In this document: in pieces, positions 5,198 through 26,771 of the stretch
How positions within the stretch are numbered: position 1 is the stretch's first letter
Layout: the number at the start of each line of letters is the position of its first letter
Assembly: GCA_016937855.1 (NCBI GenBank)
Contig: JAFGVU010000184.1
Coordinates: 62,001-126,000 of the forward strand
Length of the DNA: 64,000 bases
Direction of reading: 5' to 3'
DNA from: Bacteroidales bacterium
Lineage (GTDB): Bacteria; Bacteroidota; Bacteroidia; Bacteroidales; ML635J-15
Program-made: the position numbers and the translations under genes
Notes under the pieces: generated by a model
The model's input: the letters and a program-made list of their open reading frames with translations, nothing else
The model's database searches: none
What the model was told of the DNA's origin: nothing

Positions 5198-6379
5198 TTA
5201 GGGTTTCTCCTTTTTTGCATTTTGCAGCATTTCGCTGTAGATATTTAGATGGTTAAGATTTGTAATGAGAATGTCTTTGTAAAAGAATTTTAGAATTACA
5301 TCATACTTAGAACCTTTTGTAGCCATGATTTTTGCACTTTCAATCGACATTCCAACACCAGATCCACTACCTTTACCTTCGACTGTTATTACACCTTTAT
5401 CAAGCGTCATGCTAAAATATGAGGATTTCCAACCCCAATCTGTTTTGATTGTATTAAGACTCAAAGATTCATTCCCAATTATGAATTCATTTAATCTTTC
5501 ATCTTTTTGAACAATTAAAAGTTGTTTATGTAGCTTTTGTGCAGCAGATTTAATTCCTTTTTTAATAAGGTAAGCCTGCCACTCTGCTGCAGGTATTAGA
5601 GTTTTCCATTTGTAATTTGAGCCCTGAACAGCAAACGAATCTTTTATGGCGACTAAATGAGATTCTGAGTTACCATAAACATATTCTGATGGAGCCGTAT
5701 ATCCCCCACTGTTGGTATGAAAAACAGGATTGACGAGGTTTTTGTACTTGTCAACCATAACCAGATTCGTTGTTTTTTTTGCAGCATTTATAATTACTCT
5801 GTTTGTTGATTTATTTTTATATAATTGACAATGTGAGCCATCACATAAGTCAAAACCTTCACTTGAGTGTTTTCCATAGTTTATTAAAGCAAATGTTCTA
5901 TACATTACAGCTTGAGCTTTAAAAAACTCCTCCGATGCCATTCCTGTACCTAATCCTTCAATAGTTGCTGCGACATACGAATCAATATCTACATAATTAA
6001 TTGGTAAAATGCTATAATCATGTTTTTTTATTTTAATCCAACCGTCGTATGACCTTGCTGGTTCGACAGACCCTGAATAATTAATAAAGAATGCAGCTTC
6101 ATTACCACTATTGATAATTCTGATATCTTTATCGCTTGCCCAAGCTTTGGTACGGTTTCTATAAACTAGATAATCAGATTCGCGTACAATACTTATATTA
6201 TTTCCGGCAAGTAAAGTGTCAACGAGTTGGTAATCGTTGTAAACAAGGTATGTTCCTTTTTGAACAGTTATAGTAACTCCCTGTGGTTTTCTTTCATAAA
6301 ATATGGCAACAGCAATTTCTTGAGAAATCATCGTAAATGATGTCCCAAACAAAACTAAAGTTGTTAATAATTTATTCAT
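5198..6379 (-). CDS. SpoIID/LytB domain protein
   Basis: 393 residues with an N-terminal signal peptide (MNKLLTTLVLFGTSFTMISQ). The SpoIID/LytB domain spans about residues 125-350: YVAATIEGLGTGMASEEFFKAQA followed by RTFALINYGKH, then DLCDGSHCQLY and NPVFHTNSGGYT, and a Gly-rich GKGSGSGVGMS near the end. SpoIID of Bacillus is a lytic transglycosylase acting on denuded peptidoglycan; relatives in non-sporulating Bacteroidota are presumed to act on the cell wall. The gene overlaps the end of lpxB by eight bases and belongs to the surE-lpxB unit. Sporulation is not implied. Confidence 0.88.
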   Translation of the reverse strand: MNKLLTTLVLFGTSFTMISQEIAVAIFYERKPQGVTITVQKGTYLVYNDYQLVDTLLAGNNISIVRESDYLVYRNRTKAWASDKDIRIINSGNEAAFFINYSGSVEPARSYDGWIKIKKHDYSILPINYVDIDSYVAATIEGLGTGMASEEFFKAQAVMYRTFALINYGKHSSEGFDLCDGSHCQLYKNKSTNRVIINAAKKTTNLVMVDKYKNLVNPVFHTNSGGYTAPSEYVYGNSESHLVAIKDSFAVQGSNYKWKTLIPAAEWQAYLIKKGIKSAAQKLHKQLLIVQKDERLNEFIIGNESLSLNTIKTDWGWKSSYFSMTLDKGVITVEGKGSGSGVGMSIESAKIMATKGSKYDVILKFFYKDILITNLNHLNIYSEMLQNAKKEKP

Positions 6380-7493
6380 TCATCTTTACTCTTTCTAGCA
6401 TACTCTCTGCTATTCTTTTATAAACGCCTGGTTGTTCTAATTGGTTATACAAAGATATATAATTTTCTTTTATTCTTTTATGTTTTTTCCCGTTTGGTAA
6501 GATAGTTATCAACTCTTCTTTTAAGACGGTTAAATTCAGATCTTTTTGTATTAATTCTGTAACTGCCGGTTTATCAAGAATTAGGTTAACTAGCGAGATA
6601 TATTTTACATTTGCCACAAGTCTTGCTATAGCTACAGAAACTGCGCCACCTTTATAGCAAACAACTTGGGGTAAATTAAAAAGTGCAGCCTCGAGAGTTG
6701 CGGTTCCTGATGTTATTAAACCCGCAGTGGAATGCGATAATATTTCGTATGTTTTTCCGGAAATTAGTTTTACCGGCTTATTTTTAATAAATTGTTGATA
6801 AAAATCTGCATCAATTGCAGGAGCACCTGTGATAATGAATTGATAATCTTGAAAACTCTCGGACAATTCAGTCATTATCGGTAGCATGTGTTTTATTTCT
6901 TGTTTTCTACTGCCGGCCATTAAAGCAATAATTGGCTTATCTGGGAGATTGTTCTTTTGGATAAATTCTGTAAAACTAGATTTCTCGAAGTTAGTAACAG
7001 CATCTACTAAAGGATGTCCAAAATAGTCAACCTCAATTCCGTGGGTTGCATAGAATTCTTTTTCAAAAGGCAAAATTGTGTACATCCTGTCGGTATAATC
7101 TCTGATTTTATAAACTCTTGAGGCTTTCCAAGCCCAAACATTTGGCGAAATGAAGTACAAAGATTTATAATTATTGTTTTTTACCCATTTCGCCATACGT
7201 AAGTTAAAACCCGGATAATCAACATAAATTACAACATCTGGATTAAAATCAGCAATCTGTTTTTTACAGATTTTGAAGTTCTTTTTAATTGTCCTTATGT
7301 TTTGTAGAACCTCTACAAATCCCATAAAGGCTAATTCTCTTATGTGTTTGAGTATTTTAACACCTTGATTCTTGAGCAAATCTCCACCCCATCCTGTAAA
7401 AACTGCATTTGGATCAAGTTTTTTGATTTCTTTTACAAGATTCGACCCATGCAGGTCGCCTGAAGCTTCGCCGGCAAGAATAAAGTATTTCAT
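6372..7493 (-). CDS. lpxB: lipid-A-disaccharide synthase
   Basis: 373 residues. LpxB (glycosyltransferase family 19) joins 2,3-diacylglucosamine-1-phosphate (lipid X) to UDP-2,3-diacylglucosamine in lipid A assembly at the inner membrane. Diagnostic segments are the N-terminal ILAGEASGDLHG, FISPNVWAWKASR, FEKEFYATHGIEVDYFGHPL, the donor-site MAGSRKQEI and TSGTATLEAAL. I choose ATG 7493 over GTG 7496: the ATG forms a TGATG junction with the stop of the upstream small membrane protein, implying coupled translation. Present as part of surE, membrane protein, lpxB, spoIID. Confidence 0.96.
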   Translation of the reverse strand: MKYFILAGEASGDLHGSNLVKEIKKLDPNAVFTGWGGDLLKNQGVKILKHIRELAFMGFVEVLQNIRTIKKNFKICKKQIADFNPDVVIYVDYPGFNLRMAKWVKNNNYKSLYFISPNVWAWKASRVYKIRDYTDRMYTILPFEKEFYATHGIEVDYFGHPLVDAVTNFEKSSFTEFIQKNNLPDKPIIALMAGSRKQEIKHMLPIMTELSESFQDYQFIITGAPAIDADFYQQFIKNKPVKLISGKTYEILSHSTAGLITSGTATLEAALFNLPQVVCYKGGAVSVAIARLVANVKYISLVNLILDKPAVTELIQKDLNLTVLKEELITILPNGKKHKRIKENYISLYNQLEQPGVYKRIAESMLERVKMNE

Positions 7494-7813
7494 CACATAA
7501 ATTTAATAACAAGAACTAAAATTGTATAGATTAAAATCGAAAGAACCACCCCTTTTATTGAGTACCAATAATCTAGTCTTTTAAATATAACATAAAGAAT
7601 TAGATTTGGTAATACACACAAACTAAAAACTGCAATAATTGCTCCTTGTTCATAAAGCATTTGAACAAAATCTGCTAGTGCAAGACTCTCTTCGGAGACA
7701 ATACTTGAATATCCGAAATAGATAAGAAAAGTAATAGCCGGTAATAATAAACCTGCAATAAAACCTACAGCCGGTTTATTATATTTTTTAATCATATTTG
7801 GTTTTGCTTCCAT
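7493..7813 (-). CDS. small inner-membrane protein
   Basis: 106 residues with three predicted membrane helices: about 15-36 (AVGFIAGLLLPAITFLIYF), 55-76 (IIAVFSLCVLPNLILYVIF) and 86-104 (GVVLSILIYTILVLVIKF). The N-terminus is short and basic. It lies one base downstream of surE and its stop overlaps the lpxB start, so it belongs to that unit. No functional motif is recognised. Because it is tucked into a lipid A gene cluster, a role at the inner membrane in envelope biogenesis is possible, but this is inference from context. Confidence 0.8.
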   Translation of the reverse strand: MEAKPNMIKKYNKPAVGFIAGLLLPAITFLIYFGYSSIVSEESLALADFVQMLYEQGAIIAVFSLCVLPNLILYVIFKRLDYWYSIKGVVLSILIYTILVLVIKFM

Positions 7814-25650: not shown

Positions 25651-25982
25651 GACGATAATTTTTTAGTTAAATGAATAAATATATGAAATAACATAATGAA
25701 TAAATCCAGTTTGTTTTAGCTTTATGAAAAGCTAAAAATAAAGATAGTGTTTTTTTCTATATGCTGTACAAAATTAAATTCTTTTTATGATTCTTGCAAA
25801 AAAATTATTTTTTGTTTAACAGAAAACATCTAGGATATTTATGATAATGGTCGTTATGCTATATAAAATAAAAATCATCTATACAAGATAATTCCCAAAT
25901 TCCACCTTTGGTTGTTTTTGATGATTTTGTAATAATAATCTTTGATGATTTTTATTGTCGATTTTGAATATTTTGTGGAGTG

Positions 25983-26007
25983 TACTTCATTTAACCCGGT
26001 TGGGGGG
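25983..26007. repeat. G-run repeat, copy 1
   Basis: TACTTC, four bases, then AACCCGGTTGGGGGG (25993-26007). The same 15-mer recurs at 26184-26198 with TACTTC three bases before it. Confidence 0.6.
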
Positions 26008-26174
26008 TTACAGCCCAAAAACAAAACATCTAATGTCTTCGACGTAACTTTATATTAATACCCTGAATGCTTGAACAATTGCTATTCGTATCTGATAACT
26101 CAAACATTATTTTATTCTTATTTGGGATTTGTTCGTCTAGGCGAATTGTAATTTGAATAATTCTCTGGCGGGTT

Positions 26175-26198
26175 TACTTCGTGAACCCGGTTGGGGGG
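26175..26198. repeat. G-run repeat, copy 2
   Basis: TACTTC-GTG-AACCCGGTTGGGGGG. In this copy GGGTTTAC-TTC-GTGAACCC (26170-26188) forms a near-perfect hairpin that copy 1 lacks. It lies seven bases before the large cruciform. Confidence 0.6.
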
Positions 26199-26204
26199 AG
26201 GCAT

Positions 26205-26342
26205 TACAAACAAACACAATCACTCCTGCTATGCAGGATTTTATTAAATAAGCCCCCAAATTCTGAAACCTGCGGTTTCGATTTGGGGGCTTATTTAATA
26301 AAAAAAACCGCTTTCGCGGTTTTGTGATTGTGTTTGTTTGTA
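26205..26342 (-). repeat. 138-bp perfect four-way-junction palindrome
   Basis: Five paired segments follow each other with no unpaired base between them. The outer arms are TACAAACAAACACAATCAC (26205-26223) and its exact complement (26324-26342), 19 bp. Inside are three hairpins: A 26224-26238 (TCCTGC-TAT-GCAGGA), B 26239-26303 (a perfect 23-bp stem, 26239-26261 with 26281-26303, whose loop holds a further GAAACC-TGC-GGTTTC), and C 26304-26323 (AAAACCGC-TTTC-GCGGTTTT). The right outer arm overlaps the last two bases of the tRNA gene. It could be a structured RNA made after the tRNA, a DNA cruciform, or a non-autonomous mobile element. Hairpin C alone could act as a tRNA terminator. Confidence 0.8.
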
Positions 26343-26414
26343 GCGAGAGGCGGGTTTGAACCGCCGACCTCATGATTATGAATCATGCGCTCTAACCAAC
26401 TGAGCTACCTCGCC
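26341..26414 (-). tRNA. tRNA with CAT anticodon (probably elongator tRNA-Met)
   Basis: 74 bases on the minus strand. The acceptor stem begins GGCGAGG. The D arm holds AGCTCAGTTGGTTAGAGC. The anticodon arm is CATGA-TTCATAA-TCATG, with anticodon CAT. The T arm is GGCGG-TTCAAAC-CCGCC, and the discriminator is A. CCA is not encoded (TACA follows). The first acceptor pair is G-U. It lacks the three G-C pairs of initiator tRNA, so elongator Met is favoured; a lysidine-modified tRNA-Ile2 cannot be fully excluded. Confidence 0.92.
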
Positions 26415-26415
26415 A

Positions 26416-26771
26416 TATCTTTCTAACCAATCCCGAAAAATAGAAAATTTTGTTGTTAAATTTTCTTAATTTTTCGAGGACTCTCGATTTTTTACGAAAA
26501 AATCATTCGTCCTTGTATTGGTTTTATTATTTCAAAAAACTTCTTCCTGCTTGTTAGCTTTGCTCTGATGATTTTTTCTAAAAATCGGAGCTGAGCTACC
26601 TCGCCAAAATTTCATTTTTTGTTTTTGAACGTCCAATTGTTAAAATCGGACTGCAAAAATAATTAATTTTATTTATAATCAAATAAAGTTTGCAAACTAA
26701 TTTTAATTTTTATAAATTGCGAAAGAATATTTTTATGATCAACCATTTTAGTGGTAACTAATTAAGATTAT
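26416..26771. other. non-coding stretch between tRNA and START-like gene
   Basis: About 355 bases without a gene. It holds the duplicated tRNA 5' fragment at 26591-26606, and AT-rich sequence with self-complementary TTTTTCGAGGACTCTCGATTTTTT (two halves around 26475-26495). No integrase or att core is recognised. Confidence 0.5.
26591..26606 (-). pseudogene. duplicated 5' fragment of the tRNA gene
   Basis: CTGAGCTACCTCGCCA at 26591-26606 is identical to 26400-26415, the first 15 bases of the tRNA plus the base before it. The rest of a tRNA is absent. It is a decayed second tRNA copy or the scar of a recombination event. Confidence 0.6.

Follow-up and report, generated by a model that had tools for sequence, protein, structure and literature searches.

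A gene-free repeat behind tRNA genes of Bacteroidota with conserved folding: a candidate insertion element targeting tRNA 3' ends

Introduction

Directly behind a tRNA-Met(CAT) gene of the window, by which the whole analysed stretch of 64,000 nucleotides is meant, lies a short structured unit, repeating at about 175-182 bp, that is probably an insertion element of the non-autonomous kind. It would target tRNA 3' ends, act as folded sense-strand DNA and depend on a recombinase supplied in trans. A mobile element of this kind had been one of the proposals of an earlier, sequence-only reading, and it is now supported by copies behind other tRNAs, by an element-free orthologous site and by a duplicated tRNA 3' end; movement itself would follow from the comparison of filled and empty sites.

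To our knowledge, nothing comparable has been documented apart from the tyrT/tyrV repeats of Escherichia coli. A literature search, made mostly without subscription journals, returned by title no description of such an element, nor of the E. coli tyrT repeats. Topics nearby, by title, include a MITE in Cardinium (PMC9769881) and integrative mobilizable elements (PMC5704250).

Results

The unit is read on the minus strand, in the order tRNA-Met, arm a, hairpin T, arm b, apical hairpin, arm b', hairpin H3, arm a', C-rich spacer and distal hairpin. The tRNA gene was placed at 26340-26414 by ARAGORN and at 26341-26414 by Rfam. Its trailer, arm a (26324-26342), which covaries as an outer arm in six aligned genomes, pairs perfectly over 19 bp with arm a' (26205-26223), and because of the two tRNA ends called, the outer arm overlaps the last 2-3 bases of tRNA-Met. 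The stem encloses three hairpins. The first, T (26304-26323), is terminator-like, with 8 bp and a GAAA loop closed by C-G, and is followed by TTTTATT; judged from its sequence, it would serve as the intrinsic terminator of tRNA-Met. The second (26239-26303) has 23 bp and consists of arm b (26281-26303), which begins with the T-run of T, and arm b' (26239-26261), with a 6-bp apical hairpin (26262-26280, loop C(GCA)G) at its tip. The third, H3 (26224-26238), also has 6 bp and faces T across the four-way junction. There are no unpaired bases at the four junctions, so that the exact 138-bp structure touching the tRNA 3' end stands as it had been described. Its extent, however, had been drawn too short, since the C-rich spacer ATGCCTCCCCCCAACC (26189-26204), of a type conserved in many copies, and the distal hairpin (26170-26188) belong to the unit too. 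The latter reads GGGTT-C-AC-GAA-GT-A-AACCC, contains a C.A mismatch and ends in a right arm identical to the 3' strand of the tRNA T-arm. That strand, AAACCCGCC, is found first within tRNA-Met (26349-26357) and again, 182 bp away, as a second short and presumably decayed copy of the tRNA 3' end (26167-26175).

The folding of the window junction is far stronger than that of 200 dinucleotide shuffles, both as RNA (minimum free energy -83.1 kcal/mol, z -17.4) and as DNA (minus strand -60.2, z -17.0; plus strand -60.5, z -19.3). No open reading frame of at least 80 aa occurs between 25650 and 26772, and Rfam at the gathering threshold matched the tRNA alone in the junction region; matches below that threshold, such as mir-5583, were taken as chance palindromes. 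Farther along the minus strand, 25975-26045 is probably a decayed remnant of an older distal half. An H3-like hairpin, an a'-like arm resembling that of G012, a C-rich spacer and the remains of a distal hairpin can be read there by eye, and the reading is based on CGGTTGGGGGG, which occurs twice in the window against 0.18 expected (1 of 100 shuffles contained two).

A search of 60 relatives with the window DNA recovered the plan of tRNA, a, T, long b/b' hairpin, H3, a', C-rich spacer and T-arm-like distal hairpin behind the same tRNA-Met in six of them (G003, G012, G019, G021, G029 and G010), the G010 copy being degenerate and that of G021 having no distal hairpin. The tRNA-Met loci of 13 other relatives (L014-L026) did not have the plan and mostly showed one plain hairpin. 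In an alignment of six copies, 92.2% of the cells were paired, a value biased upward because the six rows had been chosen and shortened for folding; it fell to about 50% when the partners were slid by one column. Changes on both sides of a pair are a stronger point than this percentage: they were observed in 28 of 41 pairs, as compared with 15.8 in shuffles, and none of the 500 shuffles reached this number.

When 41 copies were parsed by minimum free energy, 32 gave an outer stem with exactly three hairpins. Among the other nine, a different fold won in L174, L191, L193, L347 and L368, L343 contained the junction within a longer structure, and L185, L195 and L200 were different or truncated. 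Repeat loci of the same site (L197-L199, L202-L205) and loci with no called tRNA (L176, L341, L342, L345) were kept outside the 41. The gap-free tiling emphasised in the sequence-only reading is true of the window copy but is not conserved; the individual junctions were gap-free in 25, 24, 9 and 20 of the 32 copies, and only 4 copies (G000, G012, G019 and L187) had no gap at any of them. The distal hairpin was seen in 30 of the 32, at a distance of 127-162 bp from the tRNA (median 141). G021 and the His copy L133 were parsed without it, and their lengths are therefore not distances.

A first covariance model (R1), built on a plain MAFFT alignment, held only 14 pairs and was set aside. The second (R2), made of the junction alone without the tRNA, gave at least 11 matches in at least 10 of 61 genomes. 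All 11 lie directly behind a tRNA, and five are outside the model's own rows: three behind tRNA-Ser, one behind tRNA-Val and the degenerate Met copy of G010. These counts are lower bounds, because only 68 candidates were scored per genome and the genome of the window yielded just its Met copy, though it holds four more. In that genome (4.44 Mb in 264 contigs, 38 predicted tRNAs) copies stand behind the genes for tRNA-Met, Pro(TGG), Pro(CGG), His and Ser(CGA), the contig of the His copy ending at arm a'. Behind the other tRNAs read, the junction was absent as far as the sequence reaches (in L134 and L140 the contigs end about 67 bases after the tRNA); a Tyr gene in an operon and the prediction C109 were outside this set. 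A whole-sequence search of the same genome with the junction found only itself and tRNAs. The copies, therefore, share shape and not letters. Copies behind other tRNA genes, which the earlier reading had suggested looking for, are thus present both in this genome and in others, and since the structure recurs in many separate assemblies, neither absence from close relatives nor an assembly fault applies.

The distal hairpin varies with its host, because its right arm is identical to the T-arm 3' strand of whichever tRNA comes before it: AAACCCGCC behind tRNA-Met in the window, AATCCC behind tRNA-Ser, AATCTCT and AATCTTCTCA behind the two tRNA-Pro, and CAACCCCGCC behind the tRNA-Met of G003 and G019. 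The inner part AT-C-AC...GT-A-AT with its C.A mismatch, which is required by the pattern used for Ser copies, was also found in the Pro and G029 copies. The window has the form TT-C-AC...GT-A-AA, and the copies of G003, G012, G019, L174 and L175 depart from the common one. Between AC and GT there are 3-22 bases in 26 Ser copies behind tRNAs.

The Ser-type distal pattern, GGGATCAC N3-32 GTAATCCC, was present in 22 of 247 genomes of the order, the reversed control giving 0. In 18 of the 22 a copy lies behind a tRNA called by ARAGORN; in G230 the contig ends within the tRNA, which was read by eye, and three have no tRNA. The plan is incomplete in the copies of G125 and G132. The same pattern applied to the phylum matched 14 of 395 genomes (reversed control 0), but only four of these matches stand behind a tRNA, namely in the genome of the window, in G474 of the same class and in G440 and the G+C-rich G471 of other classes. 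Therefore, about 10 in 395 has to be taken as background, despite the empty control. Altogether the element was found behind a tRNA in 19 of the 247 genomes of the order and in three genomes beyond it, and two arrays, L342 (G252) and L363 (G395), were seen in loci with no called tRNA. A scan of a viral collection returned at least 80 loci, and among the matches listed only L230 looked like a true copy.

A shorter core, TCACGN{1,2}AGTAA, was rejected as a means of finding copies. It gave 18 matches against 10 in the reversed control, hence many single matches are chance or belong to a different multi-copy repeat. A multi-copy repeat with GNA mini-hairpins, ending in TCACGAAGTAATAATGCGGG or similar, was noticed in the genome of the window at L149, L150, L154 and L158 (contigs C47, C48, C85 and C125). 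Two of the four lie at contig ends, and the core TCACGAAGTAA is common to them and the distal hairpin of the window.

The composition of the stems and loops bears on which nucleic acid is folded. Only 43 of 1669 pairs (2.6%) were G-T in the 32 copies that fold as a junction, whereas shuffling these sequences gave 704 of 6174 (11.4%), and 79 folded tRNA genes contained 220 in 2093 (10.5%). On the tRNA-sense strand of the 41 copies, the C(GNA)G loop was counted 22 times and its mirror form twice, and the tetraloops comprised 9 GNRA, 10 GNYA and 1 mirror form, beside 52 tri- and tetraloops of other kinds. Loops of the CTNG type are stable in DNA. The stable types taken together (GNA, GNNA, CTNG) made up 43 of 96 loops in the 32 copies and 6 of 52 in ordinary tRNA terminators (Fisher p 4e-5), or 33 of 96 against 6 of 52 with CTNG left out (p 0.003). 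The GNA loops are cited as forming extraordinarily stable DNA mini-hairpins (Yoshizawa et al., 1997, as cited in PMC6479982). The rarity of G-T pairs and the loop types suggest, as far as composition can indicate, that the sense strand is folded as single-stranded DNA. A counter-point is that the two strands of the window copy are nearly equal in DNA folding energy.

The earlier reading had also considered a novel structured RNA. In the form of a terminator cassette, the transcript would read through T, the four-way RNA would protect, process or regulate the tRNA, and selection on the RNA would keep the pairing. Such an explanation is in line with the location of the element, which is nearly always behind a tRNA and in tRNA-sense orientation, with the terminator-like T, with the strong covariation and with the occurrence of stable loops on the sense strand only. 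However, compensatory change on this scale is accompanied by a depletion of G-U pairs, the GNYA loops are as common as the GNRA ones, and C(GNA)G triloops of DNA type are numerous. Moreover, T should stop the transcript before arm b, and most tRNAs of the window's genome do without the element. The pairs and loops weaken the RNA proposal, which is considered unlikely.

A sign of insertion comes from G148. Here tRNA-Ser(TGA) carries the element, and after it come AATCCCTGTTTCTCCGC, 17 bp identical to the tRNA end, and then a second terminator. In G277, of the same genus, a homologous terminator stands directly after the tRNA and there is no element; the gene upstream is the orthologue of that in G148 (58.7% over 431 aa). 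The 17-bp repeat and the relocated terminator, together with the empty site, therefore indicate insertion. G245 has the same upstream neighbour (58.4% over 449 aa) and likewise no element, but its terminator is a different one. These two loci are the ones orthologous by synteny among 11 tRNA-Ser loci of relatives, none of which had an element in the 130 bases read; the other nine are further tRNA-Ser genes. In G148 the period amounts to 175 bp, in the window to 182 bp. The flanking repeat of the tRNA 3' end, which starts at the T-loop, is intact against plain flank in one case only, that of G148; it is full in the tandem copies L181/L199 and also at L345, a locus without a tRNA called by ARAGORN, and short elsewhere.

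The ends of the unit can be seen where one genome carries similar copies at different tRNA genes. The Ser(CGA) and Ser(GCT) copies of G240 share 81% over 213 bp; the similarity begins within the tRNA and, in both, reaches one base past the distal hairpin. In G115 (78% over 399) it breaks off precisely where the second distal hairpin ends. The pair in G243 does not define the ends, because its likeness continues past the element. These limits point to an element that spreads as a unit. In a history lacking mobility, replication slippage would duplicate tRNA ends and trailers, and template switching in hairpins would homogenise the arms. Tandem repeats are indeed common, and template switching would make near-perfect arms, but the empty site contains no element sequence, similar copies occupy different tRNA genes within a genome and the plan recurs in other classes of the phylum. 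Slippage and switching are accordingly thought an improbable source of the pattern.

The right-hand parts of the element are tandemly repeated at many loci. G250 has five distal hairpins at a spacing of 115 bp, G252 has six, and G251 has three at 47 bp. In most of the extra units the distal hairpin is kept while T and much of the stems are lost; L345, by contrast, retains T in a second unit, which lies where the contig ends. This pattern fits the deletion of unprotected palindromes or truncated insertion. A second palindromic repeat, apparently unrelated (GATGTGGGCTAAAGCCC...), lies inside the tandem units of L339 and L341 (G240).

Truncated copies would also be produced by a SINE-like retro-element, whose tRNA-started RNA is copied into a nicked T-loop by target-primed reverse transcription and leaves a target-site duplication, 5'-truncated copies and a fixed right end. 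The right end of the copies is indeed fixed at the hairpin and their left ends vary; moreover, G027 has a second, truncated copy, and its flanking repeat runs 32 bp beyond AATCCC with one mismatch. However, palindrome deletion can yield truncated copies as well, as in L199, where the tRNA end and part of arm a are kept and T is missing, and the loops are of DNA type. Reverse transcription of this sort is held to be a rather improbable route.

As judged by its sequence, the element encodes nothing able to move itself, and recombinases of the host genomes were examined. A true integron integrase was above the cut-off in 3 of 22 element genomes. Within the order sample, an IntI-like tyrosine recombinase was detected in 15 of the 19 genomes with the element and in 74 of 228 others (Fisher p 9e-5, ignoring kinship), the query being taken from an element-bearing genome and the 228 others having been screened for the Ser-type element only. 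The genome of the window gave no match to the IntI-like recombinase at 1e-50. Those read are 283-543 aa long; two of three tested belong to the NCBIfam family 'site-specific tyrosine recombinase/integron integrase', and the third is just under the cut-off. The association is a lead only.

Integron-like loci with an IntI-like recombinase, often near a contig end, were noticed at L377, L379-L386 and L388 (G474, G115, G250, G148, G243, G073, G132, G226 and G125). In several of them small genes, cassette-like by eye, come after the recombinase. In its motifs, the reading frame beside that of G243 (L382:5116-5928) resembles a class D beta-lactamase by eye.

The contig L230 of the viral collection (IMGVR_UViG_3300045146_000635) carries a phage-type integrase gene at 5810-7039, with SAM and arm domains above the cut-off and a catalytic domain just below it. 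About 140 bases from it, the stretch 7179-7767 holds a tRNA-Ser 3' end, read by eye as no whole tRNA was called, and then an element array with four distal hairpins. Therefore, such tRNA ends are targets of recombination. The same arrangement could be expected if the copies were scars of larger tRNA-site elements such as ICEs or prophages, with the four-way region representing their two joined ends. In L230, however, integrase and array are on opposite sides of the tRNA end. The pairing of a with a' in 32 of 41 copies and the spacing of the distal hairpin from the tRNA (127-162) also speak against scars, which are regarded as a very improbable origin.

Discussion

For a non-autonomous insertion element, the following course of events can be proposed. 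The form that counts would be the folded single tRNA-sense DNA strand. Its distal hairpin, of the form GGG-AT-C-AC-(variable tip)-GT-A-AT-CCC, would find its partner site in the T-arm of a tRNA, with GT|AATCCC recombining against TTCG|AATCCC, and a host or phage recombinase would act on both sites in trans, in the manner of folded integron attC sites. The element may persist because an intact tRNA with a terminator is returned after insertion, while unprotected right-hand copies would lose their palindromes.

The nearest precedent is the E. coli tyrT/tyrV repeat, known as RtT RNA (RF00391). Its unit of 178 bp is comparable to those of G148 and the window, and it ends in GT|AATCC followed by the last 19 bases of tRNA-Tyr, from the T-loop on, where the window junction is GT|AAACCC. 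The E. coli repeats likewise form tandem arrays; a 10-base arm in them can pair with the T-stem copy, and C(GNA)G hairpins are readable in their sequence. However, RF00391 matched E. coli four times but, at E up to 1, gave no match in nine Bacteroidota loci, and the E. coli unit folds weakly (z -3.2), without the a-T-b-b'-H3-a' junction and without a T-like hairpin.

Integrative elements at tRNA sites (ICEs, prophages, islands) similarly create a second tRNA 3' end without disrupting the tRNA. Unlike them, the present element measures about 180 bp, has no gene and no integrase, and its overlap is not fixed (3-22 bases from AC to GT), provided that the hairpin arms are the core sites. The attC sites of integrons have the core RYYYAAC / GTTRRRY. 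In sequence, the distal hairpin resembles them by its C.A mismatch, close to where exchange would take place, and by its variable tip; if the proposal made here is correct, it would also act, as they do, in the form of a folded single strand. They differ from it in that the junction GT|AATCCC has no GTTRRRY core, the target is the T-arm of a tRNA and true IntI is mostly absent. As in MITEs, the copies are short, gene-free, numerous and palindromic. In contrast to MITEs, there are no terminal inverted repeats common to the copies, whose arms differ between copies and pair within them; the long repeat is a tRNA end, and one type of gene is targeted.

A broader view can be put forward tentatively, as a possibility that falls short of being probable: a class of gene-less mobile DNA would live on tRNA genes across Bacteroidota as a folded single strand, either DNA or RNA copied back, and might include the E. 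coli tyrT repeats. It would turn to new tRNA species by matching the T-arm and be kept by structure almost alone. If this were true, shape could suffice for DNA to spread and be maintained while few letters are conserved, the tyrT repeats of E. coli would gain relatives and a testable origin, and the changing trailers and terminators on tRNA genes of these bacteria would be explained. If the mechanism holds, a second type of folded single-strand recombination site would stand beside attC.

One further repeat was observed upstream of the window's tRNA gene. The first 15 bases of tRNA-Met (26400-26414) recur at 26591-26605, 191 bp upstream of the gene, and in G019 a similar 5' fragment of tRNA-Met, with similar sequence after it, lies upstream of tRNA-Met. 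This repeat may represent another insertion, at the 5' part of tRNA-Met.
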